This document shows, one piece after another, positions 3,220 through 18,743 of a DNA stretch of 21,829 nucleotides (its first letter is position 1; the number at the start of each line of letters is the position of its first letter). The stretch is taken from positions 1 to 21,829 of IMG/VR virus record IMGVR_UViG_3300030390_002383; one strand, 5' to 3'. The notes beneath the pieces are model-generated. The model was not told where the DNA came from. It was given only the letters and a program-made list of their open reading frames with translations, and did not search any database. The stretch is from a virus. Made by a program: the position numbers and the translations under genes.

Positions 3220-3717
3220 ATGAGTAAAAGTAATGTACCATTTGTAAATGAAGTAGAGGAATTTAATTCCACTATGGGCAAACCAAATAATTATGAACCA
3301 ACAATCCCCGAAAAAAAAGAATGGAAGTTTGTTTATGATTTCATCCTTGAAGAACTTGAAGAATATAAAGCTGCATGTGAAGCAGGAGATATTGTTGAGA
3401 TTCTTGATGCTTTATGTGATATTACCTATGTTTCATTGGGTAACGGAGCTATGTTACATGGTCTTAAGGATAAAATACGGCCAGCCTATCAAGAAGTACA
3501 AGGGTCGAATATGTCAAAAGCTTGTTCAAACGAAGAAGATGCACAGGCAACCGTGGATAAAAGGTCAATTGAACAAAAGGAACCGTGTCACTATGAAAAA
3601 GTTGGCGATTATTATATTGTCTATAGAACACGAGATAGGAAAGTAATGAAAAATGTTAAATATTACAGACCAGATTTAAAACAATTTTTCACTAAAGAAG
3701 AGTTAGAGAATGTATAA
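3220..3717 (+). CDS. MazG/phosphoribosyl-ATP-pyrophosphohydrolase-like NTP pyrophosphohydrolase
   Basis: A 165-aa protein with an all-alpha NTP-PPase core at about residues 35-95. It shows an acidic EELEEY helix (44-49) and, after a short gap, a second helix GDIVEILDALCDITYV (56-71) that supplies E60, D63 and D67, the usual Mg2+-binding pattern ExxE...ExxD. A segment around AYQEVQGSNMSK (89-100) is typical of phage and bacterial members. The C-terminal third (YYIVYRTRDRK then YYRPDLKQFF) looks like a small beta extension. Likely role: removal of pyrophosphate from NTPs or dNTPs, or alarmone control. It starts 13 bases after folE and overlaps the polymerase gene by 8 bases, which suggests co-translation. 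The substrate is unknown. Confidence 0.75.
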   Translation: MSKSNVPFVNEVEEFNSTMGKPNNYEPTIPEKKEWKFVYDFILEELEEYKAACEAGDIVEILDALCDITYVSLGNGAMLHGLKDKIRPAYQEVQGSNMSKACSNEEDAQATVDKRSIEQKEPCHYEKVGDYYIVYRTRDRKVMKNVKYYRPDLKQFFTKEELENV

Positions 3718-5392
3718 AAAGGCCTTTGCTAGACGTCTTAAAAATAATAAGTTTCTAATACATTTATGGGAAGATAAAGGTTATTCTAAAATAGAATGGG
3801 ATAATAAAGCTTATATTGAATGTCATGAAGCAGATGCGCAGCATACTGGGTTAAATGGAGAACCTCTAAAAAAGGTTTCAAACTGGAAGTCAGACAATTC
3901 AAAACTTCATTTTCATGATATGCCTGCTTACCAAAAATTCTTAGTTGAAAAATATGGTATTAACGATGAACCATCTACTACTCATAGAGAAATATTTTTT
4001 GATATAGAAACAGAAATGGGAGATGCTCTTACTGAGGAATACATAAAATCAGCTCCTAAAAAAGTAACATCAATAGCTTGGTATGATAAGCAAGTAGATT
4101 TATGGGGTATAGTAATTCTTGATCCTAAAGGTCAACTAAACCATACTAAAGCTAAAAATAAAGAAATTATACCTTGTAAAACTGAAGAAGAATTATTAGG
4201 TAAATTTTTAGAAAGATTTAGAGATATTGATCCTGATATTATTGTAGGGTGGAATAGTGATTATTTTGATGTTCCTTATTTATATTATAGAATGTGTAAT
4301 GTGTTAGGTGAAGATTTTGCTAAACATTTATCTCCTATAGGATATGTAAGAGAAACTCCATGGTTTAAAGATCAATACATACAAATTTGTGGTGTTGAAT
4401 CTTTAGATTATATGCGTTTACATAAAAAGTTTAGTTGGGCAGATGAACCATCAATGAGATTAGATGCTATTGGAGAAAAATATGTAGGAATGAATAAGAT
4501 AGAATATGAAGGTAATCTTGATGCTTTATTTGAAACTGATATTCATAAGTTTATTAAGTATAATTTTGTTGATGTTGAAATTCTTAAAAAATTAGATGAA
4601 AAGTTAGATTATTTAGCACTTGTAAAAAATCTATCTCATAAAGGAAAACATAATTATAGTGAAGTCTATGCTAATACTAAAACCCAAGATGGAGCTATTT
4701 CAGCTTATTTATTAAGTAAAAATATTATTCCACCTGCTAAAGATAGAAATCCAATGTCTAAAAAAGGATATGCTGGAGGTTATTTATTTTGTCCTAAGGC
4801 AGGAATATATAATTATGTATTTGATGAAGATTTAACTTCACTATATCCATCAATTATTATGACTGTTAATATAGGTAAAGAAACTATGGTTGGCAGAATT
4901 ATAGATGCTGATGATAGAAATAATCGTTTAGGATTAAATGATTTAAAATGTAGAGATTATGCCGAAGAATTAATTGTTGAAAATATTAAAAGAAGTAGAA
5001 CAAAAGTTAATATAGGTAGAATTGTTGCAATGGTAGAACAAAACGATTTATCAATTTCAGCAAATGGGGTTATGTTTAATACAGATCGTGAATCTGTACT
5101 ATCAACTATATTAAAAAAGTGGTTTGATGAAAGAGTTTTATATAAAGGCAAAATGCAAAAAGCATTTAAATCAGGAGATAAAGAGCTAGGTGCAGCTTAT
5201 TATATGAAACAATATACTATGAAAATTCTACTTAATTCGTTATATGGAGCCACAGCCTTAGGTAGTTTCAGATATGGCAACGTTATATTATCTGAAGCTA
5301 TAACGCTTAGTGGACAGCGTATAATACAAGAATCTGCGTTAACCGCAAATACTCATATGAATAAAGTTATAAGAGAAGAAATTACATTATGA
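3710..5392 (+). CDS. 43: DNA polymerase family B (gp43), N-terminal part: 3'-5' exonuclease plus palm motifs A and B
   Basis: The 560-aa first piece of a T4-type replicative polymerase. Exonuclease motifs: Exo I FFDIET (96-101; D98, E100), Exo II VGWNSDYFDVPYL (179-191) and Exo III YNFVDVEIL (284-292; D288). Polymerase motif A is DLTSLYPSI (374-382), where D374 matches T4 D408. Motif B is KILLNSLYG (505-513). Motif C is absent from this ORF and appears in the next, which starts at 5389 and shares an ATGA stop/start with this one. All proofreading residues are intact. The start at 3710 overlaps the MazG-like gene by 8 bases and gives an N-terminus of the expected length. With its partner the enzyme totals 870 aa, close to T4 gp43 (898). 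Confidence 0.93.
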   Translation: MYKKAFARRLKNNKFLIHLWEDKGYSKIEWDNKAYIECHEADAQHTGLNGEPLKKVSNWKSDNSKLHFHDMPAYQKFLVEKYGINDEPSTTHREIFFDIETEMGDALTEEYIKSAPKKVTSIAWYDKQVDLWGIVILDPKGQLNHTKAKNKEIIPCKTEEELLGKFLERFRDIDPDIIVGWNSDYFDVPYLYYRMCNVLGEDFAKHLSPIGYVRETPWFKDQYIQICGVESLDYMRLHKKFSWADEPSMRLDAIGEKYVGMNKIEYEGNLDALFETDIHKFIKYNFVDVEILKKLDEKLDYLALVKNLSHKGKHNYSEVYANTKTQDGAISAYLLSKNIIPPAKDRNPMSKKGYAGGYLFCPKAGIYNYVFDEDLTSLYPSIIMTVNIGKETMVGRIIDADDRNNRLGLNDLKCRDYAEELIVENIKRSRTKVNIGRIVAMVEQNDLSISANGVMFNTDRESVLSTILKKWFDERVLYKGKMQKAFKSGDKELGAAYYMKQYTMKILLNSLYGATALGSFRYGNVILSEAITLSGQRIIQESALTANTHMNKVIREEITL

Positions 5393-6321
5393 AACATTTA
5401 GAAGATACCCCATGGTGGATTTGTGATCCTGAAGATAAAAATTATGTAGCATATTCTGATACAGATTCTATTTATATCCATGCTGAACCTTTACTTAGAC
5501 ATTTATATCCAACATTTGAAGAAATGCCTAGTGAAGAAAAAGATGATAAATTAGAGGAAATTGCTTTAAAGTATCAAGATATTATAACAGATTCTTATAG
5601 TTCACTAGCAGCTAATTGTTTTAATGCTAAAGGAAAGCATAGATTAGAAATGAAAACAGAATGTGTAATTAGATCAGCTTATTTTAGAGCTACAAGACGT
5701 TATGCACAGTGGATTACAAAACAGGAAGGTATAACAAAAGAAACACTAGATGTTAAGGGATTAGAATTTAAAAAAGCAAATTTTCCTCCTGTACTAGGCG
5801 ATTTTTTTAGAAAAGCATTAATTGATGTTTTAAAAGGAGCAGAACAAAGTGAAATTGATAGTAGATTAAAACTATTTAAAACACAAATTTTAGATGGAAC
5901 TATACCTTTAACTAAATTAGGAAACCCAACATCAGTAAAAAAATTAAATAAGTATACAGAACGTAAAGCTAGAGCTGGAGAAATGTTTTCAATTATGGCT
6001 AAAGGTGCACCTGCAGCTGTTAAAGCAACAGTAGTTTATAATGATTTATTAAAGTTTTGGGGTTTACATAAAGAACATAATTACATAACTCAAGGTAGTA
6101 AAGTAAAATGGATTTATATGAAACCTAATCCATATCAAATTGATGCTATTGCTTTTTTAGACTATGATTTACCAGAAAAAATTCGTATATTCATTGAGCA
6201 ATATGCTGACAGAAAAAAAATATTCGAGTCCATACTATTAAATAAATTAGAAGGATTTTATAATGATTTAGGATGGACACTAAATTTAAATCCATACCAA
6301 CAAATGTTTTTCAATATATGA
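5389..6321 (+). CDS. 43: DNA polymerase family B (gp43), C-terminal part: motif C palm and thumb
   Basis: The 310-aa second piece. Motif C, YSDTDSIYIHAE (22-33), carries the catalytic pair D24 and D26 (T4 D621/D623). The K-K-Y thumb-region segment around VKKLNKYTERKARAG (about 184-198) and later residues match the family C-terminus. The piece ends NPYQQMFFNI, a hydrophobic tail reminiscent of clamp-binding peptides. It starts inside the stop codon of the first piece (ATGA at 5389-5392), and the sliding clamp follows by another ATGA at 6318-6321. No conserved segment is lost at the join, so the two chains probably assemble into one active enzyme. A single-base sequencing error is less likely because a well-placed ATG exists at the break, but it cannot be excluded from one read. 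Confidence 0.92.
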   Translation: MKHLEDTPWWICDPEDKNYVAYSDTDSIYIHAEPLLRHLYPTFEEMPSEEKDDKLEEIALKYQDIITDSYSSLAANCFNAKGKHRLEMKTECVIRSAYFRATRRYAQWITKQEGITKETLDVKGLEFKKANFPPVLGDFFRKALIDVLKGAEQSEIDSRLKLFKTQILDGTIPLTKLGNPTSVKKLNKYTERKARAGEMFSIMAKGAPAAVKATVVYNDLLKFWGLHKEHNYITQGSKVKWIYMKPNPYQIDAIAFLDYDLPEKIRIFIEQYADRKKIFESILLNKLEGFYNDLGWTLNLNPYQQMFFNI

Positions 6322-7052
6322 TAAATAAACAGAAACTACAATCAGTAATTAACAAATATTATTTAAATGTTAATGAAGCCGTAAAATGGGTTACAAAAGA
6401 TAACACATTGCAAATTGATTTTATGTCGCCTACTAAAGATATTATAGGAAAATTAACCTGTAAAGATTTTGATGTAGAAGATAGTACATTAGCTATCTAT
6501 GATACCAAAAAATTAAATAGTTTAGTTAGCATATGTAATGGTGATCTACTCTTAGAATTAGAAAGAACCAACAAAATATTTACTAAATTAAAGATATCAG
6601 ATTTAAACTTTAATTTAACATATGCTTTATCTGATGCTTTATTAATTGGTAAAGTAGGAACAATAAATATGCCTGAATTTGTAGTTAAATTAAATTTAAC
6701 TACTGAGGATATTGAAAATCTTATTAAAGCAAAAAGTGCATTATCTCAAGTAGATAATATGTTAATTACAACTACTACTAATTTAGATGGGGAAAATGTT
6801 TGTGAATTTATATTTGGTGATGAATCTGGACATAATAATAAAATCACATATCAAATAATGGGAAATATCACAGAGCAAGATTTAAAAATCCCATTTAATT
6901 CAGATACATTTAAAACAATTCTTCATGCTAATAAAGACATGGAAGAAGGAACATTAAATATTAGTACAATGGGATTAATTGAAATGAAATTTAAAACAGA
7001 TACAATTTCCTCAGAATATTTTATGGTGAGGAAAGCAGAAACTGATTTTTAA
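6318..7052 (+). CDS. 45: Sliding clamp, DNA polymerase processivity factor (gp45-like)
   Basis: A 244-aa protein placed directly after the polymerase. It has the length of T4 gp45 (228 aa) and a similar beta-rich pattern: IDFMSPT, KLTCKDFDVEDSTLAIYD (compare DVIDFDVAIYD in T4), LNSLVSICNGDLLLEL and a terminal ...AETDF (T4 ends ...STHDF). As a trimeric ring it tethers gp43 to DNA and in T4 also activates late transcription. The ATG at 6318 is chosen because it forms an ATGA overlap with the polymerase stop and fits the family length. An in-frame ATG at 6273 would add 15 residues encoded inside the polymerase C-terminus and is less likely. Confidence 0.88.
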   Translation: MINKQKLQSVINKYYLNVNEAVKWVTKDNTLQIDFMSPTKDIIGKLTCKDFDVEDSTLAIYDTKKLNSLVSICNGDLLLELERTNKIFTKLKISDLNFNLTYALSDALLIGKVGTINMPEFVVKLNLTTEDIENLIKAKSALSQVDNMLITTTTNLDGENVCEFIFGDESGHNNKITYQIMGNITEQDLKIPFNSDTFKTILHANKDMEEGTLNISTMGLIEMKFKTDTISSEYFMVRKAETDF

Positions 7053-7144: not shown

Positions 7145-7564
7145 ATGAGTACACATTTTTTAGAGAGATTTTACAACCCGTATGATCTATTATTTCGTAA
7201 CCTGTTTGAATCAGGAGCAACATTTACACCGGCTGGAGAAGCCAAACAACAATATCCAATTAATATTTTTGAAGATGATCTAGGTCTAACTTTTGAGTTA
7301 GCTTGCACTGGCATTCCTAAAGAAGCCATTGAAGTTAAATTAGAAGGAGATATGATTACTTTTTCTTATGATAAGGATAAAACCCCAGAACCCGAAAGAA
7401 GTTACATTCATAGAGGGATTGCCAAACGTTCTTTTAATTTAGCTTATAAATTAGGAACAAAATTTACACCAAATAAAGCAATGGCTGATTTTAATGATGG
7501 ACTATTAATAGTAAGAGTTCCATTTGCAAAAGAAGCTGCGCCTAAAGTTTTAAAAATTAATTAA
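7145..7564 (+). CDS. Small heat-shock protein, Hsp20/alpha-crystallin family
   Basis: A 139-aa ATP-independent holdase. The short N-terminus (about residues 1-35: FLERFYNPYDLLFRNLFE) precedes an alpha-crystallin domain running to the end. Visible family elements are YPINIFEDDLGLTFELACTG (36-55), 'IPKEAIEVKLEGDMITFSY', 'SYIHRGIAKRSFNLAYKL' and 'ADFNDGLLIVRVPF' with the L-x-V strand, ending PKVLKIN. Hsp20 genes are a recurring feature of marine T4-like phages, where a role in capsid or scaffold folding has been proposed. Here it opens a chaperone block with groES and groEL. Its leader holds candidate regulatory structure, and the next gene has its own promoter-like motif. Confidence 0.92.
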   Translation: MSTHFLERFYNPYDLLFRNLFESGATFTPAGEAKQQYPINIFEDDLGLTFELACTGIPKEAIEVKLEGDMITFSYDKDKTPEPERSYIHRGIAKRSFNLAYKLGTKFTPNKAMADFNDGLLIVRVPFAKEAAPKVLKIN

Positions 7565-7593
7565 TTAGTCTTAACAAAAGTTCGCCCTTTAGG

Positions 7594-7623
7594 TTGGATT
7601 ATTTAATTATTATTCGTATATTA
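7594..7623 (+). promoter_or_regulatory. Promoter-like motif ahead of the 98-aa gene/groES/groEL unit
   Basis: TTGGA at 7594-7598 and TATATTA at 7617-7623, preceded by TTATTCG: the same 20-base spacing and the same seven bases before the box as upstream of folE. The ATG of the 98-aa gene lies 25 bases downstream at 7648. It would drive the unit 7648-10241. The flanking 7565-7593 segment contains CGCCCTTTAGG, complementary to a site upstream of hsp20. Confidence 0.6.
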
Positions 7624-7647
7624 CGGTAAACAAAAATAAAAAGTTAT

Positions 7648-7944
7648 ATGTCAAAAATTGAAGACCCACTAATGAAACCCTATTTTATAGGGAAAGATAC
7701 ACATTGTTATACTGTGTATGAAGTAGTAACCCCACAAGAAAAATATTTAGAAAAAGGTAGTGAAGGTAAAGATTATGAAAAACCTTTAGGACATTTTGGT
7801 ACATTTGGAAGTGCCTTGCAAAAAGTTGCAAAATTAAAACTCCACAACGAAAAAGATCACTATACCAGCATTAAAGAATATGTGGATAGATGGGATGAAT
7901 TATTAATCGAATTAAAAAACTTACAAAATTATAGAGAATTATGA
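7648..7944 (+). CDS. Hypothetical protein, 98 aa, first gene of the chaperonin unit
   Basis: The product is soluble and charged (MSKIEDPLMKPYFIGKDTHC... ending LKNLQNYREL). It looks like one small alpha/beta domain: a beta segment DTHCYTVYEVVTPQEKY, a GHFGTFGSALQKVAKLKL turn-helix, then a helical tail IKEYVDRWDELLIELKNL. The pattern (Y-V near the start, 'G-F-S-AL-K', terminal helix) resembles small uncharacterised phage proteins, but I cannot name a family. It starts 25 bases after a promoter-like motif and overlaps groES by ATGA at 7941-7944, so its translation is probably coupled to groES. A link to chaperonin function is possible by context only. Confidence 0.7.
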   Translation: MSKIEDPLMKPYFIGKDTHCYTVYEVVTPQEKYLEKGSEGKDYEKPLGHFGTFGSALQKVAKLKLHNEKDHYTSIKEYVDRWDELLIELKNLQNYREL

Positions 7945-8339
7945 ACTTAGAAGCAACCTTTAATGCAGTTATAGTTAAACCTCTTGAAGTAGAGGAAGAA
8001 AAGTATGGATCAATTGTAGTACCAGATATTGGTAAAGATAGAAATGAACATGGAGAAGTAATATCAGTAGGTCCTGGTCAACACACAATATCAGGAACAT
8101 TTATTGAAACCTCACTTAAAGTGGGTGATTTAGTTATTGTACCTACACAAGGTTTTACAAAGTTAGAACATAATGGTGAGGATTATTATGTAGGGCCTGA
8201 AAATCAAATTTTAGCTAAATTTAAAAAAATAGTAGATGTTGAAAATATTTTAGCAGAAACAGATCCACTAGAAGAAACTGAACTTATTAGTGAAGACGAA
8301 ATGAATAAATTAGAAACAAAATTAAAAAGACAAGTATGA
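7941..8339 (+). CDS. groES: GroES-type co-chaperonin (gp31-like role) with extended C-terminus
   Basis: A 132-aa lid protein that caps GroEL. Residues 1-96 are a GroES domain: FNAVIVKPLE (7-16), a mobile loop 16-36 with the hydrophobic tripeptide in GSIVVPD (IVL in E. coli), GEVISVGPG (38-46), LKVGDLVIVP (59-68) and a terminal strand NQILAKF (88-94). A tail of about 36 mostly charged residues (97-132, ...TDPLEETELISEDEMNKLETKLKRQV) extends beyond both bacterial GroES (about 97 aa) and T4 gp31 (111 aa). It is joined to groEL by an ATGA overlap at 8336-8339. Co-encoding with groEL makes this a complete phage chaperonin pair, unlike T4, which supplies only the lid. Confidence 0.93.
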   Translation: MNLEATFNAVIVKPLEVEEEKYGSIVVPDIGKDRNEHGEVISVGPGQHTISGTFIETSLKVGDLVIVPTQGFTKLEHNGEDYYVGPENQILAKFKKIVDVENILAETDPLEETELISEDEMNKLETKLKRQV

Positions 8340-9967
8340 GTAAAATTATAGAATTTGGACCCGAGGGAAGACAAAAATTAGTAAAGGGGATTGACATATT
8401 AGCAGATGCTGTAGTATCAACTTTAGGACCTAATGGTAGAAATGTAGTAATTGAAAAAGAACATAATCAAGCACAATCTACTAAAGATGGTGTAACTGTT
8501 GCTAAACATATTTCTGTTAAAGACCCAGTAGAAAATTTAGGAGTAAATTTAGTTAGAGAAGCATCGGTAAAAACAGCAGATAAAGCAGGTGATGGTACAA
8601 CTACCTCTACCTTATTAGCTAGAGAGATGATTAAAGATGGGTTACAACATCTTGCTAATGGAGCTAATGCTGTTGAGATTAAAAGATCAATTGATAAAGC
8701 TGTAAAAGAAGTTACTAGTAATTTAAGATCTAATATTTCAGATGATATTTCATCTGAAGAACAGTTAGAACAAGTAGCAACTATATCTGCAAATAATGAT
8801 CCTGAAGTAGGTAAATTAATTGCAACCGCAATGAAGAATGTAGGACATGAAGGAATTGTTCATATAGAAGAAAGCAAATCAGGGGATACTTATTTAGAAA
8901 CAGTTGAAGGTTTACAATTTGAAAGAGGTTACAAATCCCATTTCTTTGTAACTAACAATAGTACAATGACTTCAACTTTAGAAGATGTTTCAATTCTTAT
9001 TGCTGATCAAAAACTAACAGCAGTTAAAGATTTATTACCAATATTTGAAAGTTGTGCATCCCAAAATAAATCTCTATTAATTATTGCAGAAGATATAGAT
9101 AATGAAGCTCTTGCTACACTTATTGTTAATAAAGGTAGAGGAACTATTAAAGCTTGTGCTGTTAAAGCTCCTGATTTTGGAGATAGAAGAAAATTAATTT
9201 TAGAAGATATAGCTATTATGACAGGAGCTACAGTATTTTCAAAAGAAAAAGGACATAGATGGGATAGATTTGAACATAGTTGGTTTGGAGAAGCTCGTGT
9301 AGTTACTGTTGGTAAAGATAAAACAACTATTATTGATGGTAAAGGAGATGTTAAGTTAATTGATAATAGAATTGAAGAATTAACATCTCAAATTGAATCA
9401 GCAGATAGTGATTTTGAAAAAGAACAATTACAAGGAAGATTAGCTAGAATTGCTGGAGGTGTTTCTATTATTCATGTAGGTGGTTATACTGAAATTGAAA
9501 TGAATGAAAAAAAGGACAGAGTAGATGATGCTCTACATGCTACAAAAGCAGCAATTGAAGAAGGAATTGTTCCTGGTGGAGGTGCTGCATTATTATATGC
9601 TAGAGAAATTATTAATAATAATAGTATAGGTGCAGAGATTGTTTATAAATCTTGTGGAAAACCATTTGAACAAATACTTATAAATGCAGGACATGATTCA
9701 GTTAAAGCTCAAATGTTAGGTAAATATCAATTAGTTGAATCTGGTGATAATACATGGAAAGGATATGATCTTAAAAAAGGCGAAGTTGTTGATATGAAAG
9801 AAGCAGGTATTATTGATCCAACTAAGGTAACTAGAGTTGCTTTAGAAAATGCAGCAGCAGTTGCTGGGACAGTATTACTTACAGAATGTATTGTAGTAAA
9901 TGAGCCTTCAGATGATGATAAACAACCACAAATGGATCCATCACAAATGATGGGAATGGGAATGTAA
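8336..9967 (+). CDS. groEL: Chaperonin GroEL (HSP60), full length
   Basis: 543 aa against 548 in E. coli, so it is not truncated. ATPase residues are intact: GPNGRNVVI (31-39), D51 in TKDG, D86 in GDGTTT (86-90) and D398 in KKDRVDDALHATKA, plus GGG (414-416). Apical residues that bind GroES and substrate are kept or conservatively changed: Y199, F203, F204, L234, L259, I263, V264. The C-terminus ends MMGMGM, a bacterial-type Gly-Met tail. A stretch at about 306-320 (GHRWDRFEHSWFGEA) is richer in Trp, Phe and His than usual for that apical region. Start and stop are tightly coupled to groES (ATGA) and to the next gene (one base gap). It folds proteins in a double-ring ATP-driven cage; phage targets are inferred. 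Confidence 0.97.
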   Translation: MSKIIEFGPEGRQKLVKGIDILADAVVSTLGPNGRNVVIEKEHNQAQSTKDGVTVAKHISVKDPVENLGVNLVREASVKTADKAGDGTTTSTLLAREMIKDGLQHLANGANAVEIKRSIDKAVKEVTSNLRSNISDDISSEEQLEQVATISANNDPEVGKLIATAMKNVGHEGIVHIEESKSGDTYLETVEGLQFERGYKSHFFVTNNSTMTSTLEDVSILIADQKLTAVKDLLPIFESCASQNKSLLIIAEDIDNEALATLIVNKGRGTIKACAVKAPDFGDRRKLILEDIAIMTGATVFSKEKGHRWDRFEHSWFGEARVVTVGKDKTTIIDGKGDVKLIDNRIEELTSQIESADSDFEKEQLQGRLARIAGGVSIIHVGGYTEIEMNEKKDRVDDALHATKAAIEEGIVPGGGAALLYAREIINNNSIGAEIVYKSCGKPFEQILINAGHDSVKAQMLGKYQLVESGDNTWKGYDLKKGEVVDMKEAGIIDPTKVTRVALENAAAVAGTVLLTECIVVNEPSDDDKQPQMDPSQMMGMGM

Positions 9968-9968
9968 T

Positions 9969-10241
9969 ATGGAAACAATAATTAATGAACATAATGAATT
10001 AATAGCTACTAGAGTACCTCCTGGAGACAGGTGGACTTTAGTAGATGATTCTAAAAAGGTAGTTCATCCATCTTTAACAGAATGTTTAGAAGCTTTTCTT
10101 AATAAGACTGGATTTAAAGGAGAATATAGATTAGATCCTGTTAATAGTAGATTATATGCTATTCATACAACTGAAGAAGAAATAGCACCCAAAGAAGAAA
10201 AAACATTTTCATTATATGGTGAGTTTAAGCAAGGCGCCTAA
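9969..10241 (+). CDS. Hypothetical protein, 90 aa, directly downstream of groEL
   Basis: ATG one base after the groEL stop, with no recognisable Shine-Dalgarno site. The product (METIINEHNELIATRVPPGD... ending KTFSLYGEFKQGA) is soluble and acidic, with a PPGDRWTLVDDSKKVV segment that looks like beta strands and a helix around TECLEAFLNK. I recognise no family. Tight spacing to groEL suggests co-transcription from the 7594-7623 motif. The gp44 promoter-like motif starts right after its stop, so this is probably the last gene of the chaperonin unit. Confidence 0.65.
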   Translation: METIINEHNELIATRVPPGDRWTLVDDSKKVVHPSLTECLEAFLNKTGFKGEYRLDPVNSRLYAIHTTEEEIAPKEEKTFSLYGEFKQGA

Positions 10242-10243
10242 GC

Positions 10244-10273
10244 TTGGAGAATTAAATAATATTTTGTATATTT
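10244..10273 (+). promoter_or_regulatory. Promoter-like motif ahead of gene 44, nearly leaderless
   Basis: TTGGA at 10244-10248 and TATATTT at 10267-10273, preceded by ATTTTG, with the same 20-base spacing as the folE and chaperonin motifs. The gp44 ATG starts at 10279, only 6 bases after the box. If the box works as a -10/-7 element, the transcript would begin within a few bases of the start codon, giving a leaderless or near-leaderless mRNA. The element occupies nearly the whole 37-base gap. Confidence 0.55.
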
Positions 10274-10278
10274 AGGTT

Positions 10279-11196
10279 ATGAAAGATCACGGATTATTAG
10301 TAGAAAAATATCGTCCAATAAATTTGGATAATTATGTAGGTAATGAGAATATTAAAAAATCAATATCAAATTATATTGGTCAGAATGATATTCAAAATTT
10401 AATATTTTATGGACCAGCAGGAACTGGAAAGACTACATTAGCAAAATTAATTGTTAAAAATATAGATTGTGATCACTTATACATTAATGCTTCTGATGAG
10501 CGTGGTATTGAAACTATTAGGGATAAAGTCTCGGGTTTCGCATCTACTATGTCATTTAAACCCCTTAAGGTTATTATCTTGGATGAAGCAGATTTTCTTA
10601 CAATTCAAGCACAAGCGTCATTAAGAAATGTAATTGAAACATTTTCCAGAACTACACGTTTTATTTTAACCTGTAATTTTATAGAACGTATTATAGATCC
10701 ATTACAATCAAGATGTCAAACATTAAAAATTGTTCCACCTAGTAAATTAGATATTGTTAAACATTTACAGAAAGTTACTGATAAAGAAAATATTAAATAT
10801 AAGACTGTAAATGATTTAGCAATTGTAGTTAACAATAACTACCCTGATGTTCGTAAGATGCTTAATACTATACAAGTATCTACAACAGATAATGAATTAA
10901 ATTTAGATACAACAGCATTAGTATCATCTAATTATATGACAAAAGTATTAGAATGCTTAAAACAGTCTAGTCCTAAGTTTAATGAAATTAGACAAATAAT
11001 TGCAGACGCAAATGTAAAAGATTTTGAAGAATTTTATAGATTTTTATATGATAATTCATCAGAATATACAAACCATAAAGAAGGTATGGTTGCCTTTCAT
11101 ATTAATGAATATTCTTATCAATCAAATTTTAGAATAGATAAGGAAATAAATTGTATGGCTTTAATAAACCAATTAATTAAACTAAAAACCAATTAA
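10279..11196 (+). CDS. 44: Clamp-loader large subunit, AAA+ ATPase (gp44-like)
   Basis: 305 aa; T4 gp44 is 319. It is an RFC-type AAA+ protein that, with gp62, loads the gp45 ring on primed DNA. It begins LLVEKYRPINLDNYVGNE, the standard clamp-loader opening. Walker A is GPAGTGKTT (45-53), Walker B VIILDEADF (98-106), sensor 1 TCN (131-133), and the SRC arginine-finger motif DPLQSRCQ (140-147). The C-terminal collar domain (about 210-305) is less conserved. All catalytic elements are present. A promoter-like motif abuts the start. In T4 this gene lies next to 45 and 62; here the clamp is about 3.2 kb upstream, separated by chaperone genes. Confidence 0.96.
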   Translation: MKDHGLLVEKYRPINLDNYVGNENIKKSISNYIGQNDIQNLIFYGPAGTGKTTLAKLIVKNIDCDHLYINASDERGIETIRDKVSGFASTMSFKPLKVIILDEADFLTIQAQASLRNVIETFSRTTRFILTCNFIERIIDPLQSRCQTLKIVPPSKLDIVKHLQKVTDKENIKYKTVNDLAIVVNNNYPDVRKMLNTIQVSTTDNELNLDTTALVSSNYMTKVLECLKQSSPKFNEIRQIIADANVKDFEEFYRFLYDNSSEYTNHKEGMVAFHINEYSYQSNFRIDKEINCMALINQLIKLKTN

Positions 11197-11206
11197 ATTT
11201 TAAATT

Positions 11207-11449
11207 ATGAGTGATAGAATCGCACAACCCCAAGTAGACTTAAATAGTACTACACCATTTGAAACTCCAGAAGGTAATAAAATATTTCAACAAGGAGTAT
11301 TAATAAGAAAAGTATCTAAATTTGTAGCGGGTACAAATGAAGACGCAGTAATGCCAATTCCTGTATTTTATGATCCAGATACTAAAAAAATAGTAGGATT
11401 AACATTACCTCCAGAACTTAGAGAAGAATATAAGGAAGATATTATATAA
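11207..11449 (+). CDS. Hypothetical protein between clamp-loader genes, 80 aa
   Basis: The product (MSDRIAQPQVDLNSTTPFE... ending REEYKEDII) has an extended N-terminus and a likely small beta fold (GNKIFQQGVLIRKVSKFVAG, then MPIPVFYDPDTKKIVGLTLPPEL). No motif or family is recognised. It starts 10 bases after gene 44 and shares a TAATG stop/start with gene 62, so it sits inside the clamp-loader operon and is likely produced with it. Whether it contacts the clamp loader is unknown. Confidence 0.65.
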   Translation: MSDRIAQPQVDLNSTTPFETPEGNKIFQQGVLIRKVSKFVAGTNEDAVMPIPVFYDPDTKKIVGLTLPPELREEYKEDII

Positions 11450-11865
11450 TGACTGTATTTAATTGGTTAAATGAAATAACTGTTAAGAAATCTCCATCCA
11501 CCCAATTTGAAAAAGAAGATTGGGATGGATGGAATTCTTACATGGTTCATAGATTTTTATCTATGAATAAAGGATATATTGATTTAGTTAATATAGCCCA
11601 AAGATTTCACCCAACTGATAAAAAAGGTCTTTATAATTTTTATAAAGAATTAATTCCTAAAAAGAAAGTTTGGAATAAATATATTAAAAATCAAAATAAA
11701 AAAGATATAAAAGAATTATCTAAGATAGTAGCTAATTATTTAGAAGTTGGATGTAATGAGGCTAGTTCATATATTCCCATATTAGGAAAAGAAGGAACTA
11801 AAGATATTTTAAGTGGAATAGGCTTAGAGAATAAAGAAATTAAAAAATTACTAAAAACAATATGA
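11449..11865 (+). CDS. 62: Clamp-loader small subunit (gp62-like)
   Basis: A 138-aa, helix-rich, lysine-rich protein without ATPase motifs, as expected for the non-ATPase clamp-loader partner (T4 gp62 is 187 aa; many marine relatives are shorter). Matching elements are an N-terminal MTVFNWLNEITVKK, the YMVHRFLSMNKGYIDLVN helix resembling the 'FMVNRALS' helix of relatives, FHPTDKKGLYNFYKELIPKKK (where relatives show a Y-F-PR-K pattern), and a C-terminal GIGLENKEIKKLLKTI. Position after gp44 in one unit supports the call. It overlaps the following gene by ATGA at 11862-11865. Confidence 0.82.
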   Translation: MTVFNWLNEITVKKSPSTQFEKEDWDGWNSYMVHRFLSMNKGYIDLVNIAQRFHPTDKKGLYNFYKELIPKKKVWNKYIKNQNKKDIKELSKIVANYLEVGCNEASSYIPILGKEGTKDILSGIGLENKEIKKLLKTI

Positions 11866-13725: not shown

Positions 13726-13751
13726 TAATTAATTAAAAATAGTTTTTGAAT

Positions 13752-15185
13752 ATGAAAGAAGGTTATATCAAACAAAAAGATAGAAAAAATATCTTGTTGT
13801 TAACGGATGACATTAGAGTACATTCAGGGGTTGCCCAAATAGGTAGAGAAATAGTAACAAATACAGCTCATAGATATAATTGGGTACAATTAGCTGGAGC
13901 AATTCAACATCCAGATAAAGGACAATTACAAGATTTAAGTGAAGATACTAACAAACGTATGGGGCTTAAAGATTCAAAAGTAGTTTTATATCCGGTTGAT
14001 GGTTATGGAGAACCTAAGTTATTAAAAGAAGTTATTAAAAGAGAAAATATTGATGCTTTATTTATAATAACAGATCCAAGATATTTTGAATGGTTATTTG
14101 CTATTGAGAATGAAATTAGAACTCAAATTCCTATAGTTTATTTAAATATTTGGGATGATTTACCGGCTCCAATGTATAATAAAGAATTTTATAATTCTTG
14201 TGATGCTTTATTTGGTATATCTAAACAAACTAAAAATATTAATGAAATGGTTTTAGGTAAAGAAGGTAAATCTAAAATTATTAAATATGTCCCTCATGGA
14301 TTAAATCATCATATTTTTAAACCTATAGATAAGGATAATGAGGATCTTAAAAATATTCAAAACCATATAGCTGGGGGTTCTAATAAAGATAAATTTACAC
14401 TATTTTTTAATTCAAGAAATATTAGAAGAAAATGTATTCCCGATACTATTTTAGCTTGGAAATATTTTTTAGATGGTTTAGATAAAAAAGATAGAGAAAA
14501 TTGTCAATTTATTCTACATACAAATCCTATAGATGAGAATGGTACTGATTTACCTGCAGTGGTTAAATTTTTATTCCCTAATAAAGATGGTAACGTAATA
14601 ATATCAGCAAACAAATTATCTACGGAACAAATGTCTTTATTATATAATCATGCAGATGCAACAATTTTATTATCATCAGCAGAAGGATGGGGATTATCTC
14701 TTACTGAATCATTGTTAACAGGTACACCTATTATAGCTAATGTAACTGGAGGAATGCAAGATCAGATGAGATTTGAAGATGAAAATAATAATTGGTACAC
14801 ACCAAATCCAGATGTTCCCTCAAATCATAAAAAAACATATACAAAATGTGGTGAGTGGGCATTACCTGTATTTCCTTCAAATTTATCATTAGTAGGTTCT
14901 CCAAAAACTCCATACATTTATGATGATAGGTGTAGTGCTGAAGATGCTGCTTTACAAATAAAAGCTATGTACAATATGGGTAGTGAAGAAAGAGAAAGAA
15001 TAGGTAAATTAGGTATGGAATGGGCTTTAGGTGATGAAGCTGGATTTACTTCTGAAAAAATGTCTAATAAAGTAATAGATGGTATGGATGAGTTATTTTC
15101 AACATGGGTGCCTAGAAAAAAATTCACTTTTAGTAGTGATAAAGATGCAGGAAGTAAAGTTTTAAATCATAAATTATTATATTAA
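13752..15185 (+). CDS. Glycosyltransferase, GT-B fold, GT4-like
   Basis: A 477-aa sugar transferase. The N-terminal domain starts with KNILLLTDDIRVHSGVAQIG (12-31), the first Rossmann strand and acceptor loop. The linker YVPHGLNHHIFKP (179-191) matches the 'V-P-H-G-x-x-x-x-x-F' signature of GT4 enzymes. In the C-terminal domain AEGWGLSLTESLLTGTPIIA (310-329) carries the EX7E motif (E311, E319) for nucleotide-sugar binding. ATG at 13752 is preferred over an in-frame TTG at 13746. Donor and acceptor are unknown. The next glycosyltransferase starts one base after its stop. It probably acts at the cytoplasmic face on a phage or host glycan. Confidence 0.85.
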   Translation: MKEGYIKQKDRKNILLLTDDIRVHSGVAQIGREIVTNTAHRYNWVQLAGAIQHPDKGQLQDLSEDTNKRMGLKDSKVVLYPVDGYGEPKLLKEVIKRENIDALFIITDPRYFEWLFAIENEIRTQIPIVYLNIWDDLPAPMYNKEFYNSCDALFGISKQTKNINEMVLGKEGKSKIIKYVPHGLNHHIFKPIDKDNEDLKNIQNHIAGGSNKDKFTLFFNSRNIRRKCIPDTILAWKYFLDGLDKKDRENCQFILHTNPIDENGTDLPAVVKFLFPNKDGNVIISANKLSTEQMSLLYNHADATILLSSAEGWGLSLTESLLTGTPIIANVTGGMQDQMRFEDENNNWYTPNPDVPSNHKKTYTKCGEWALPVFPSNLSLVGSPKTPYIYDDRCSAEDAALQIKAMYNMGSEERERIGKLGMEWALGDEAGFTSEKMSNKVIDGMDELFSTWVPRKKFTFSSDKDAGSKVLNHKLLY

Positions 15186-15186
15186 T

Positions 15187-16497
15187 ATGAAAAATACATT
15201 TGTTATAAGTTGTCCAATAGATACTTACAGTGGATATGGAGCTAGATCTAGAGATTTTGTTAAATCCTTAATTGAATTAGATCAATATGAAGTAAAGATT
15301 TTAGCACAAAGATGGGGAAGAACTTCAGATAATTTTATAGATAGTAATAAAGAAAAATGGGGTTTTTTAAAAAAGCATATAATCCCTCAATTAGTAGACA
15401 AACCAGACTATTGGTGTCAAGTTACTGTACCTAATGAATTCCAACCAGTTGGAAAATATAATATTGGTTTAACAGCAGGAATTGAAACTACTGTTTGTGA
15501 TGGTAGTTGGCTTGAGGGTTGTAATAAAATGGATTTAATTTTAACTTCTTCCAATCATTCTAAAAAAGTATTTGAAACTTCTCAATTTTATAAAGATGGT
15601 AAAGAAGATCAAATAATTAAATTAGAAAAACCAGTTAAAGTTTTATTTGAAGGTGCTGATTTAGATACTTTTAAAATAACTAAAACTTTTAAAAACAAAG
15701 AATTATATAATCACATAAATGATATACCTGAAAAAGATGCCTATCTATTTGTTGGGCACTGGATGCAAGGTGAATTAGGACATGATAGAAAAAATGTAGG
15801 ATTATTAGCAAAAGTGTTTTATGAAATATTTAAAGAAGCAAAAAACAAACCAGCATTAATTTTAAAATCTTCAGTAGTAGGAGGAAGTCTTTCAGATAGA
15901 GAAGAAATACTAAGAAGACTAGATATGATTAAAGAATCAGTTCCTTCTAAAGATTTACCATCAATATATCTTATTCATGGTGAGTTATCTGATGAAGAAA
16001 TGAATGAACTTTATAATCATCCAAAAATCAAAACAATGGTTTGTATAACAAAGGGTGAAGGATTTGGAAGGCCTTTACTTGAATTTAGTTTAGTTGATAA
16101 ACCTATTATTACAACAGGTTGGTCTGGTCATATAGATTTTTTAAATGAAGGAGATGTTGGATTTGTTAGTGGAGAATTAGAAAATGTTCATGCATCAGCT
16201 CATGTTCCTAATATGTTATTAAAAGAATCACAATGGTTTAAACCTAATTTAGGTGATGTTAAATATTTACTTAATGATACAAGTAAAAACTATAAAGATT
16301 GGTTAACTAAAGCTAAACGTCAAGGAAAAATTTCTAGAGAAAATTTTAGTTTTGAAAAAATGAAAGAACAATTAAAAACTCATTTAGAAATATCATTACC
16401 AATACTTCCTAAAAAAATGCAATTAAAATTACCAGGAATGGATAAAATTAAAATGCCTAAAAAAAGTAAAATTAAACATTTAAAAAGTATAAAATGA
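15187..16497 (+). CDS. Glycosyltransferase, GT-B fold, second GT4-like enzyme
   Basis: 436 aa. The N-terminus FVISCPIDTYSGYGARSRDF (5-24) is a Rossmann strand with glycine-rich loop. TKGEGFGRPLLEFSLVDKPI (288-307) contains EX7E (E291, E299), followed by TTGWSGHIDFL. It is not a close copy of the preceding transferase, so it probably adds a different sugar or linkage. The last ~30 residues are strongly basic (KKMQLKLP...KKSKIKHLKSIK), which may mediate membrane or nucleic-acid contact. It ends in an ATGA overlap with the zinc-ribbon gene. No transmembrane segment is visible. Confidence 0.82.
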   Translation: MKNTFVISCPIDTYSGYGARSRDFVKSLIELDQYEVKILAQRWGRTSDNFIDSNKEKWGFLKKHIIPQLVDKPDYWCQVTVPNEFQPVGKYNIGLTAGIETTVCDGSWLEGCNKMDLILTSSNHSKKVFETSQFYKDGKEDQIIKLEKPVKVLFEGADLDTFKITKTFKNKELYNHINDIPEKDAYLFVGHWMQGELGHDRKNVGLLAKVFYEIFKEAKNKPALILKSSVVGGSLSDREEILRRLDMIKESVPSKDLPSIYLIHGELSDEEMNELYNHPKIKTMVCITKGEGFGRPLLEFSLVDKPIITTGWSGHIDFLNEGDVGFVSGELENVHASAHVPNMLLKESQWFKPNLGDVKYLLNDTSKNYKDWLTKAKRQGKISRENFSFEKMKEQLKTHLEISLPILPKKMQLKLPGMDKIKMPKKSKIKHLKSIK

Positions 16498-16985
16498 TAA
16501 CAGATAATTTAGAAACGTGTAGTAGATGTAGTGGTGATGCCTGTTATGTACAGGAAGTAAATGGAATAAAATTATACCAATGTTATGGTTGTGGTTTTAT
16601 GACATCAGATGTAATGAAAAGAGGAGAAAAATTTCTTGAAGAACAAATGGAAATACTTCCAGAACTTTATAAAGTCTTATTAGGTGAAGATGATAAAGGT
16701 CGTGTTTGGATGCCTCAAACAGTAAATTTACCTCAACAAGGGATGGTATTTGCTACTGTAGCTAAAGAATTTGGGGATCCTGATTCACCAGCAGCTGTTG
16801 ATAATTATGAATGGGCTGCAGTAAAGGCAATTAAAATAAAAGATAAAGATAAAGAAAAATATCCTATACCTAATAAGGAAGGAGAGTATTATGAATTTAG
16901 GATGGATATGACAACAGAAAAAAGATTTTCACATAAAGATTTTGTTGAAGCGTTAGACTATATAAATGTATTTCAAAATGATTAG
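16494..16985 (+). CDS. Zinc-ribbon hypothetical protein, 163 aa
   Basis: The N-terminus has two CxxC pairs, TCSRC (C9, C12) and CYGC (C30, C33), separated by a short beta hairpin, which gives a zinc ribbon. The rest is an alpha/beta domain (MVFATVAKEFGD..., DNYEWAAVKAIKI..., YYEFRMDMTTEKRFSHKDF) of unknown function. I recall similar CxxC proteins as uncharacterised members of marine T4-like phage genomes. It sits inside the glycan cassette, joined by ATGA to the second GT and overlapping the epimerase. DNA or protein binding is possible; a sugar role is not shown. Confidence 0.7.
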   Translation: MITDNLETCSRCSGDACYVQEVNGIKLYQCYGCGFMTSDVMKRGEKFLEEQMEILPELYKVLLGEDDKGRVWMPQTVNLPQQGMVFATVAKEFGDPDSPAAVDNYEWAAVKAIKIKDKDKEKYPIPNKEGEYYEFRMDMTTEKRFSHKDFVEALDYINVFQND

Positions 16986-17931
16986 AGGAATTAAAGAAAC
17001 AATAAGAAAACTAATTTTACCTAAAAAGAAAGGTAAATTAAAAGCTATAGTAACAGGGGGTAATGGTTTTATAGGATCCCATATAGTAGATGAATTAGTA
17101 AATAATAAAAAATTTGATGAAATAAGAATAATTGATAATCAATCATCAGATGCTCATGAACATTTTTATTTTTCAAAAAGTGAAAAAGTAAGAAATTTTG
17201 TTTGGGATATTGCTGATTTTGATTTAATTAGACCTTTATTTAATGATGTAGATGTTGTATTTCATTTAGCAGCAGAGTCTAGAATTCAACCAGCAATCCA
17301 AAATCCAGCTTTAGCAGCAAAAACAAATGTAACAGGTACTTGTAATGTTTTACAAGCAGCAAGAGAAGCAGGTTGTGATAGAGTAATTTATTCATCAACA
17401 TCATCAGCTTATGGTTTAGCCAATACTCCTCCATTAAAAGAAGACATGCCTAATGATTGTCTTAATCCTTACTCAGTTACTAAAGTAGCTGGAGAAGAAT
17501 TATGTAAAATGTATACTAGCTTATTTGGATTAAAAACTATAACATTTAGGTATTTTAATGTTTATGGAGATAGACAGTGTACTAAAGGACAATATGCCCC
17601 AGTAATAGGTTTATTTTTAAAACAGAAAGAAGCAGGTGAAAAAATGACAGTAGTAGGTGATGGTTTACAAACTAGAGATTACACTAATGTAAAAGATGTT
17701 GTAAAGGTTAATATGCAAGCTATGATTACTAAAAAAGGGTTTGGTGAAATTTATAATGTAGGAACAGGAAAAGAACATAGCATATTAGATTTAGTAAATA
17801 TAATAGGGGGAAAACATAAACATATACCTGAAAGAATTGGTGAAAGTAGAAATACTAAAGCTGATATTTCTAAAACAATGAAAATATTAAATTGGAAGCC
17901 TATTATTAAATTAGAAGACTACTTAAGTTAG
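16978..17931 (+). CDS. NAD-dependent sugar-nucleotide epimerase/dehydratase (extended SDR, GalE/WbpP-like)
   Basis: 317 aa. The NAD-binding TGGNGFIGSH (26-35), an acidic residue after strand 2 (IIDNQS), VFHLAAESR (94-102), the catalytic SSTSS (139-143) and Y165-x3-K169 in NPYSVTKVAG are all present, as is FRYFNVYGDRQ (190-200), which precedes the substrate-binding region. The RYFNVYG pattern is typical of UDP-glucose/UDP-GlcNAc 4-epimerases, but the substrate cannot be fixed. ATG at 16978 (8-base overlap) is preferred to 16966. About 20 residues of basic leader precede the Rossmann fold. It likely supplies an activated sugar to the neighbouring transferases. Confidence 0.9.
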   Translation: MIRGIKETIRKLILPKKKGKLKAIVTGGNGFIGSHIVDELVNNKKFDEIRIIDNQSSDAHEHFYFSKSEKVRNFVWDIADFDLIRPLFNDVDVVFHLAAESRIQPAIQNPALAAKTNVTGTCNVLQAAREAGCDRVIYSSTSSAYGLANTPPLKEDMPNDCLNPYSVTKVAGEELCKMYTSLFGLKTITFRYFNVYGDRQCTKGQYAPVIGLFLKQKEAGEKMTVVGDGLQTRDYTNVKDVVKVNMQAMITKKGFGEIYNVGTGKEHSILDLVNIIGGKHKHIPERIGESRNTKADISKTMKILNWKPIIKLEDYLS

Positions 17932-17958
17932 GTATATCAATATATTTTTCGTATATTT
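17929..17958 (+). promoter_or_regulatory. Promoter-like motif ahead of the second glycan segment
   Basis: TATATTT at 17952-17958, preceded by TTTTTCG, resembles the boxes at 2481, 7617 and 10267. The upstream element at the matching 20-base spacing is TAGGT (17929-17933), a weaker version of TTGGA. The ATG of the next glycosyltransferase lies 19 bases downstream at 17977. It begins inside the epimerase stop codon and would start a transcript for 17977 onward. Confidence 0.45.
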
Positions 17959-17976
17959 AATTAAACAAATTAAAAT

Positions 17977-18600
17977 ATGAAATTAAGCTACGCTATTACT
18001 GTCTGTAACGAATTTACAGAAATTCAAAGATTAATTCCTTATCTTTTAAAGAATATAAGATTTGAAGATGAAATTGTAGTTCTATATGATTCAAAGAACG
18101 GTAATCCCAAAATAGAAGAATTTTTAAGAGCAAAGTCTGTAAATGGTGAATTTAGTTGGCATAAAGGTGAATTTAAAGGTCATTTTGCTGATTGGAAGAA
18201 CTATTTAACAACTTTATGTAGTGGTGATTGGATTTTTCAAATAGATGCTGATGAAATGCCTCATGAAAATTTAATAGAATTTCTCCCAGAAATAATCATA
18301 AGTAATATTGAAAATGAAGTAATTAGAGTTCCTCGAGTTAATACTGTATATGGTTTAACTGAAGAATATATTAGAAAATGGGGTTGGAATATTAATGATA
18401 GTGGGTGGGTGAATTGGCCTGATTTTCAATGGAGAATTTATAAAAATCACCCTAAAATTAAATGGGAAAATAAAGTACATGAAGTACTTACTGGTTTTAA
18501 ACATTATTCTGACCTTCATGAAGATGAAGTATGGAGTTTATATCATCCTAAAGATATAGAAAAACAAGTTAAACAAAATAATTATTATAGCACTTTTTAA
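17977..18600 (+). CDS. Glycosyltransferase, GT-A fold, GT2-like
   Basis: 207 aa. The N-terminus KLSYAITVCNEFTEIQRLI (2-20) is the classic first strand of GT2 enzymes. DEIVVLYDSKNG (31-42) holds the uridine-contacting Asp. WIFQIDADEMPH (85-96) carries the DAD metal-binding motif (D90, D92). KWENKVHEVLTG further on matches the family's acceptor-side motif. It is short for the family but keeps the core elements, so it looks complete. No membrane segment is visible. Preceded by a promoter-like motif and followed by a tiny ORF after one base. Confidence 0.85.
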   Translation: MKLSYAITVCNEFTEIQRLIPYLLKNIRFEDEIVVLYDSKNGNPKIEEFLRAKSVNGEFSWHKGEFKGHFADWKNYLTTLCSGDWIFQIDADEMPHENLIEFLPEIIISNIENEVIRVPRVNTVYGLTEEYIRKWGWNINDSGWVNWPDFQWRIYKNHPKIKWENKVHEVLTGFKHYSDLHEDEVWSLYHPKDIEKQVKQNNYYSTF

Positions 18601-18601
18601 A

Positions 18602-18742
18602 ATGAAAGATCAACAAACAAATGGTAACCCACATACCAATGAAACTCGAAATGATTTAAATAATAAAATCAGTAAATACAAAATGCTAGGTAATAGCAAA
18701 AAAGTACAATGGTCTGATAAAAGAAGATTTAGAAATATATAA
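18602..18742 (+). CDS. Small basic hypothetical protein, 46 aa
   Basis: ATG at 18602 to TAA at 18740-18742, exactly bridging the glycosyltransferase stop (18600) and the next ATG (18744). The product (MKDQQTNGNPHTNETRND... ending WSDKRRFRNI) is hydrophilic, Asn-rich and basic at the end. No family is recognised. Support is positional. Without it, the 143 bases between 18601 and 18743 would be the only notable non-coding gap in this segment. Confidence 0.4.
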   Translation: MKDQQTNGNPHTNETRNDLNNKISKYKMLGNSKKVQWSDKRRFRNI

Positions 18743-18743
18743 T

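Follow-up and report, generated by a model that had tools for sequence, protein, structure and literature searches.

A conserved GroES-GroEL chaperone set between the clamp and clamp-loader genes of a marine phage lineage, retained where the neighbouring replisome has been exchanged

Phage T4 makes use of the GroEL of its host, and folding of its major capsid protein gp23 needs that GroEL together with the phage lid gp31, an enlarged co-chaperonin in which the roof hairpin is missing. With gp31, as with CocO of phage RB49, the phage itself supplies the lid of a group I chaperonin (PMC9598537). Other phages encode the cage: EL gp146, OBP gp246 and AR9 gp228 are GroEL homologues described as working without a co-chaperonin, those of OBP and AR9 as single rings and that of EL as double rings that separate with ATP. 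GroEL/GroES pairs are already annotated in cultured phages, among them Flavobacterium phage elemo and Cellulophaga phage phi40:1, in which the two genes are adjacent or nearly so, and GroEL related to that of Cellulophaga phages has been described from 36 marine genomes (PMC5332604). Closest to the present subject are the kin of Flavobacterium phage immuto, which a 2024 study of polymerase swapping describes as carrying GroEL/GroES next to a DNA polymerase that belongs to family A, B or C (PMC11348598); the linkage of chaperonin and polymerase in this group is thus already known. The subject here is a chaperone set comprising Hsp20, GroES and GroEL that lies between the sliding clamp gene (gp45) and the clamp loader gene (gp44) in a 21,829-nucleotide stretch of viral DNA, hereafter the window (positions 1 to 21,829 of IMG/VR record IMGVR_UViG_3300030390_002383, a 37,964-base record described as a marine bacterial virus).

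The window phage, unlike T4, encodes GroEL as well as the lid, and its GroEL gene is coupled to a GroES gene, unlike those of EL, OBP and AR9; the OBP and AR9 proteins are also distant (24-26% over ~75% of the query). The GroELs of elemo and phi40:1 are 38% identical to that of the window and stand in other contexts, with GroEL preceding GroES in elemo. The closest cultured relative is immuto, whose GroEL is 56% identical: there too GroES-GroEL adjoins the 'regular' polymerase, the gene order of FolE, MazG-like protein, PD-(D/E)XK nuclease and glycosyltransferase is alike, and divPolA1 and gp23 are encoded elsewhere, but the polymerase is of family A and Hsp20, gp45, gp44 and gp62 have no significant match. 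The reading favoured here, with a probability of roughly 0.6, is that of a chaperone operon long established in phages of the immuto/divPolA1 lineage, with gp23 as its likeliest client and a cage of altered ring contact. The locus, all on one strand, reads as follows.

3710..5392, + strand: PolB, N-terminal part (split gp43); PF00136 E=6.8e-24, PF03104 E=1e-13
5389..6321, + strand: PolB, C-terminal part (split gp43); phrog_262 E=5e-48, phrog_1918 E=1.5e-42
6273..7052, + strand: gp45-type sliding clamp; phrog_223 E=1.9e-8, homologue at the equivalent place in phage Mel-JY01 E=3e-18
7145..7564, + strand: Hsp20 small heat-shock protein (holdase); PF00011 E=4.7e-10, phrog_432 E=5.8e-16
7648..7944, + strand: x98, a DUF5405-like phage protein of 98 amino acids (aa); phrog_154, fold match to a DUF5405 phage protein E=9e-5
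7941..8339, + strand: GroES co-chaperonin, C-terminal tail ~36 aa; PF00166 E=1.6e-17, alignment to E. coli GroES
8336..9967, + strand: GroEL group I chaperonin, 543 aa; PF00118 E=9.5e-67, phrog_5725 E=1.5e-147
9969..10241, + strand: y90, a conserved orphan of 90 aa; no Pfam or PHROG match, immuto26A_70 E=4e-20
10279..11196, + strand: gp44-type clamp loader large subunit; phrog_168 E=6.2e-76
11207..11449, + strand: z80, homologue of immuto26A_78, E=1.5e-9
11449..11865, + strand: gp62-type clamp loader small subunit; phrog_225 E=2.7e-16

FolE and a MazG-like gene precede this block, and a PD-(D/E)XK nuclease and glycosyltransferases lie further downstream of gp62; genes that were not family-scanned, such as FolE, take their names from homology to annotated immuto genes. 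An earlier reading of the sequence alone (the sequence-only reading) had described Hsp20, a 98-aa gene, GroES and a 543-aa GroEL in tandem, coupled by ATGA overlaps from the 98-aa gene through GroEL and splitting the gp45-gp44 pair, and the open reading frames (ORFs), their Pfam and PHROG matches, the flanking phrog_223 and phrog_168 genes and the overlaps at 7941-7944 (x98/GroES) and 8336-8339 (GroES/GroEL) agree with it throughout. Hsp20 ends 83 bp upstream of x98 and is outside the ATGA chain, and the ATG of y90 begins one base after the GroEL stop.

Within this lineage the chaperone arrangement is real and near-universal. Among the best 80 of 426 relatives retrieved from IMG/VR with the window GroEL, every locus that extends 3.2 kb or more upstream carries gp45, Hsp20, x98 and GroES (36/36), with the C-terminal part of PolB in 35/36, the N-terminal part in 31/36 (contigs L024 and L043 begin inside the C-terminal part; L052, L066 and L073 are left aside) and PolA in 0/36. 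Downstream, gp44, z80 and gp62 are present in 57/57 loci with at least 3 kb of sequence and y90 in 55/57. The complete order gp45-Hsp20-x98-GroES-GroEL-y90-gp44, on one strand, is found in 49 of the 55 loci in which gp45 and gp44 are both present; the six exceptions, which the 3.2-kb cut-off had masked, all retain GroES and GroEL, the undetected genes being x98 (L030, L046, L054), y90 (L066, L069, L073) and Hsp20 (L069). To offset this GroEL-based choice of relatives, gp44 served as a separate query (best 80 of 424 relatives): GroEL stands immediately before gp44 in 70/70 loci whose upstream sequence reaches 2.1 kb or more. Where it reaches 4.6 kb or more, the full gp45-to-gp44 order is kept in 41/41 viral contigs, which fall into 26 clusters at 97% identity. 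L338, retrieved with another query and without GroEL, lies outside these gp44-selected counts, and a scan with the gp44 of Mel-JY01 returned a single distant locus. The synteny comparison proposed by the sequence-only reading therefore found a conserved order, while the remark that such a set is uncommon may hold for cultured phages, where a GroEL match occurs in 287 of 50,697 collection records, some of them bacterial contigs, and a match to the window GroES in 17; in this lineage, however, the set is the rule. Salmonella records AGRM01000005 and AFYI01000007, bacterial-chromosome-like by title, are of the kind that inflates the count of 287, as is CAKLQF020000019 ('Acinetobacter phage MD-2021a'), which looks like a bacterial chromosome contig, judged by its neighbouring genes.

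The GroES-GroEL pair stays in place while the DNA polymerase and replisome around it are exchanged between two clades. The sister clade was defined by a scan with immuto GroEL (best 80 of 585 relatives), and its loci hold PolA and GroES in 58/58 cases and Hsp20 in 26/58, with PolB and gp45 in 0/58, downstream gp44 and gp62 in 0/67, and a z80 homologue in 57/67. In immuto itself homologous genes flank the locus to either side, a family-A polymerase occupies the place of PolB and gp45, and tblastn of the window PolB halves, gp45, gp44, gp62 and Hsp20 against the genome gave nothing significant (best gp44, E=0.067). The same division is seen in longer records: the gp44 family is strong in 4/4 window-type records and in Mel-JY01, with a strong match in 0/7 immuto-type records, where it is weak (E 1e-5 or worse) or absent, and the immuto PolA finds a match in 3/3 immuto-type and 0/6 window-type records, three of the latter being of 164 kb. 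These 164-kb records carry gp23 and divPolA1. divPolA1 is present in 4/10 window-type records, the window's own 38-kb fragment being among the ten and lacking it, and in 4/6 further window-type records, three of them near-copies; because its relatives carry divPolA1, the window probably belongs to the immuto/divPolA1 phage group. In keeping with the proximity of GroEL/GroES to the 'regular' polymerase by which PMC11348598 characterises that group, PolB and gp45 lie upstream in the window, followed by GroES-GroEL.

Microcystis phage Mel-JY01 (PP395634) offers the corresponding site without the island. Its order is an unsplit PolB, gp45, gp44 (40% identical to that of the window), an 81-aa protein, gp62, a b143 homologue and PD-(D/E)XK; only 69 bp separate gp45 from gp44, and its 190 kb hold no GroEL or GroES match. 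The 81-aa protein matches immuto26A_78 (E=1e-10), itself the homologue of z80, with no direct match between z80 and the 81-aa protein among those listed. The z80 relative thus lies between gp44 and gp62 where both exist and after GroEL where both are missing. It is an observation in its own right that a Microcystis phage (PP395634:70000-82000) has the PolB-gp45-gp44-gp62-PD-(D/E)XK block of a putative flavobacterial phage group. Most simply, the T4-type block, chaperones already inserted, would be the older state, and PolA would later have taken the place of PolB, gp45, gp44 and gp62 in the immuto clade; the reverse direction, with the PolA state first, may hold instead, Mel-JY01 being at most a possible outgroup.

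The proteins themselves are of a kind that should work. GroEL matches PF00118 over positions 1-489 of the 490-position profile, a full-length Cpn60 architecture, and T30-P33, D52, D87-T91, D398, G415 and D495 are identical in the window GroEL and 80/80 relatives. The sequence-only reading had considered GroEL intact at D51, D86, D398 and the apical GroES-binding residues: the three aspartates, which correspond to D52, D87 and D398 of E. coli, are indeed in place, but three of ten apical residues checked are conservatively changed (F203, F237, I263). The co-chaperonin-binding positions are nonetheless hydrophobic (L234, F237, L259, I263, V264). The GroES matches PF00166 over positions 3-93 of 93 with an intact Cpn10 domain, aligns to E. 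coli GroES without a gap at the mobile loop or roof, and bears the mobile-loop tripeptide IVV (IIV or IVV in 73/76 window-type rows); Hsp20 has an alpha-crystallin domain (PF00011, positions 4-96 of 102). Because the main ATP-site residues, apical surface, Cpn10 domain and mobile loop are conserved, the pair should form a working cage and lid, and the earlier view of a complete set that looks active is supported, with activity as probable. Hsp20 would hold unfolded phage proteins, which GroEL with its own GroES lid would then fold in an ATP-driven, lid-capped heptameric cage. The chaperone genes are probably co-transcribed with the replication block and, since they lie within it, the machine would probably be made early.

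The cage is likely to differ from the classical one in its ring contacts. K105-D435 and R452-E461 are inter-ring salt bridges, described as absent from single-ring mitochondrial Hsp60 (PMC5575113), and the single-ring mutant SR1 carries R452E/E461A/S463A/V464A (PMC5653362). Residues 105 and 452 are both basic in 81/81 cellular GroELs and in none of 156 phage GroELs (0/81 window-type, 0/75 immuto-type; five of the 80 immuto-type loci were excluded from residue counts for a match start not at residue 1-2 or a short frame). Taken singly, position 105 is basic in 3/81 window-type and 3/75 immuto-type proteins and position 452 in 0/81 and 15/75; the window GroEL has Q and E, respectively. D435, present in 78/81 cellular GroELs, is lost in most window-type ones. 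In cellular GroELs 276 columns reach a conservation of at least 90%, and both phage clades have lost 25 of these; four of seven ring positions, D435 not being one of the seven, are conserved columns and three of the four are lost, a P of 0.0025 that is descriptive, the changed positions having been seen before the test. In phage DAC16, whose GroEL falls with those of Bacteroidota, positions 105 and 452 are both K, and E461, S463 and V464 are present. A compensating charge swap between R452 and E461 was considered and dropped, the residue aligned to E461 shifting with the alignment (K or D); the alignment around 461-464 is unsure and carries little weight, and the firm claim is limited to 105 and 452.

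Judged by these residues, the phage GroEL has lost the canonical inter-ring salt bridges at K105 and R452, a change that the sequence-only reading did not note. It resembles SR1 and mitochondrial Hsp60, which have altered contacts at R452/E461 and, for the latter, also at K105-D435, the window GroEL having E at 452 naturally; SR1 is engineered and mitochondrial Hsp60 organellar, and the likeness is one of sequence. The loss therefore predicts a single-ring or a rebuilt double-ring machine: GroEL probably acts as single rings or through an altered ring-ring contact that avoids mixing with host GroEL, and a rebuilt double ring fits equally well. Only the designation 'classical double ring' is made less likely; the assignment to group I would be unaffected, since single-ring group I chaperonins exist. 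A tentative extension would see a natural SR1-like single-ring GroEL that, in contrast to the single-ring proteins of OBP and AR9, has its own tuned GroES lid and is insulated from host GroEL because loss of the salt bridges would preclude mixed rings, and GroES-GroEL, with Hsp20 in many members, as a fixed core around which replisomes (PolB with clamp and loader, or PolA) are exchanged.

The alternative that the island is host DNA, whether misassembled into the contig or recently captured from a flavobacterial host, has a negligible probability and may be regarded as already refuted. It could draw on the best cellular GroEL matches, which among those listed are mostly from Bacteroidota and reach ~51-52% identity, and on base composition: measured per 1 kb, GC content climbs from 0.25 to 0.30 near 7000, and from ~9500 to 11000 the GC skew drops from 0.34 to 0.03. 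Comparable swings occur elsewhere in the window, however, and composition around the island is not decisive. Chimerism, which the sequence-only reading had named as an outcome that would undo it, is excluded because the 41 gp44-selected contigs all carry the full arrangement. As for capture, a first tree of 71 rows supported the window-type clade (14 rows) at 99/99 and the immuto type (12 rows) at 88/96, but the long-branched elemo and phi40:1 joined the window-plus-immuto group, which renders the deep placement unsafe. Branches were very long for phi14:2, phi40:1, elemo and VAP7, and a second tree of 64 of the 71 rows left these out together with D506, K469 and LR756501. Here the 26 rows from both phage clades come together in a single group (100/100), apart from another (99/99) made up of 22 rows of Bacteroidota plus phage DAC16. 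The sequence-only reading had asked whether this GroEL groups with Bacteroidetes hosts or with other phage GroELs; grouping inside Bacteroidota is not borne out within the sampled set, and recent capture is unsupported, the phage clade being outside the sampled Bacteroidota. The tree points to an old phage GroEL lineage; a larger clade of phages and Bacteroidota is not rejected (p-AU, from the approximately unbiased test, 0.534), and a distant origin on the Bacteroidota side is possible. A Flavobacteriales host is probable because of the host of immuto and the mostly Bacteroidota cellular matches. One sequence titled as a Streptomyces griseus metagenome-assembled genome (CALPIT020000291) has a GroEL that groups with Bacteroidota; its bin or label is probably wrong.

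What the machine folds is the question on which the remaining readings diverge. Because the pair outlasts exchange of the replisome, the client it cannot do without is probably one retained by both clades, and an obligate T4-type replisome client is unlikely; gp23 ranks as the most likely client and divPolA1 as second because both occur in both clades, whereas the 'regular' replisome does not. A gp23-type gene was found in 5/7 immuto-type records, in Mel-JY01 and in 4/10 window-type records, namely G002 and three near-copies of 164 kb with an open frame that also carry divPolA1. The gp23 match in G002 (C1:1058-2503, in the 119-kb record behind locus L019) holds two in-frame TAA near the contig start, for which a frameshift, an insert or sequence error is possible. 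The earlier proposal of a folding machine for capsid or replisome proteins is accordingly weakened in its replisome half, the pair persisting in a sister clade without PolB, gp45, gp44 and gp62, and plausible in its capsid half. Unlikely is a set dedicated to the adjoining replication proteins (PolB halves, clamp and loader) or to divPolA1, which would help the split PolB to fold and join. The chaperonins do stand directly beside the DNA polymerase in both clades, and in all 'regular' polymerase neighbourhoods of the group as described in PMC11348598; PolB is in two ORFs, and divPolA1 is common to both clades. GroES-GroEL is nevertheless retained where PolB, gp45, gp44 and gp62 are gone, and in Mel-JY01 a T4-type block whose PolB is unsplit exists with no chaperonin; divPolA1 may still be a client. 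Somewhat less likely again is general insurance, in which the pair would raise folding capacity during infection without a specific client and Hsp20 and GroEL would serve many phage and host proteins. Such a role would suit a complete set of holdase, cage and lid and a GroES that follows E. coli GroES without the obvious enlargement of a gp31-like lid; yet GroES and GroEL are near-universal rather than sporadic in the sampled loci, which suggests essential use.

Several observations weigh against a gp23-folding cage of altered ring contact. gp23 was not found in 6/10 window-type records (G000, which is the window's own record, G001, G003, G016, G020 and G021, all fragments below 100 kb) or in 2/7 immuto-type records, and Mel-JY01 has gp23 with GroEL and GroES undetected, so gp23 does not need a phage-encoded pair in every phage. 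Persistence through replisome exchange may be compatible with other replication clients, such as divPolA1 common to both clades, and the tight polymerase linkage in both could likewise mean a replication client. Within GroEL, N479 and A480, which lie beside the nucleotide, are changed in many or all relatives, and retention of D435 in 63/75 immuto-type rows would weaken the loss of ring contact.

Among the small proteins of the block, a phrog_154 match is present in 32/34 x98 members scanned, and the predicted x98 model (mean predicted local distance difference test score, pLDDT, 86) resembles the DUF5405 protein and other small phage proteins, with no match among solved structures at E<=0.001. 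A role for x98 as chaperone cofactor is unsupported: its immuto homologue lies ~23 kb from the chaperonins, and x98 is undetected in 3/55 window-type loci that retain GroES and GroEL. Because of the remote homologue in immuto, x98 is probably not a chaperone part. y90, whose model has a mean pLDDT of 84, carries an LIAxRVPPGDxW motif and has no PHROG family and no PDB fold match at E<=0.001; its homologue immuto26A_70 (L082:8413-8682) sits upstream of PolA in immuto, so y90 appears to track the polymerase neighbourhood, not GroEL. The C-terminal tail of GroES was rejected as a fixed functional novelty, GroES length being mostly 95-133 aa among window-type loci, with three ORFs of 42, 72 and 83 aa left aside.

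Further features of the window stand apart from these questions. The N-terminal part of PolB corresponds to residues 1-549 of the PolB of Mel-JY01, which is unsplit (E=7.5e-91), and the C-terminal part, whose ORF has an ATGA overlap with the first, with residues 557-833; at the split within 3710-6321 of the window, locus L019 (1447-3526) has two extra ORFs of 248 and 128 aa before the C-terminal half. Downstream of the replication block, 13746-20871 holds a series of genes resembling glycosyltransferases and sugar-nucleotide enzymes, in part common to immuto (L084). Scans for regulatory signals gave nothing usable: 28 promoter-like sites in the window against a mean of 32 in shuffles, and three terminator-like sites against 1.2, the one on the + strand falling inside GroES.

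The chaperone operon is thus conserved and probably functional, and the phage that carries it belongs to an already described group in which chaperonins adjoin the polymerase. No account of Hsp20-x98-GroES-GroEL being inserted between gp45 and gp44, of the clade-wide counts or of the ring-contact loss was found in the open-licence literature, the supplement of PMC11348598 aside, nor was an experimentally tested client found in the literature for phage chaperonins paired with GroES. What this locus would add is a constant chaperonin pair with exchanged replisomes, together with a predicted change in ring architecture. The two sister clades represent a natural experiment in which the pair is held constant while the replisome changes, narrowing the clients toward gp23 or divPolA1. 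Likewise, the loss of ring contacts would let nature's own variant show whether a GroEL working with a lid can cycle as a single ring, a matter earlier studied with engineered SR1 and mitochondrial Hsp60. Finally, immuto, growing on Flavobacterium sp. LMO8, provides a cultured relative in which the questions of client and of ring state become testable.

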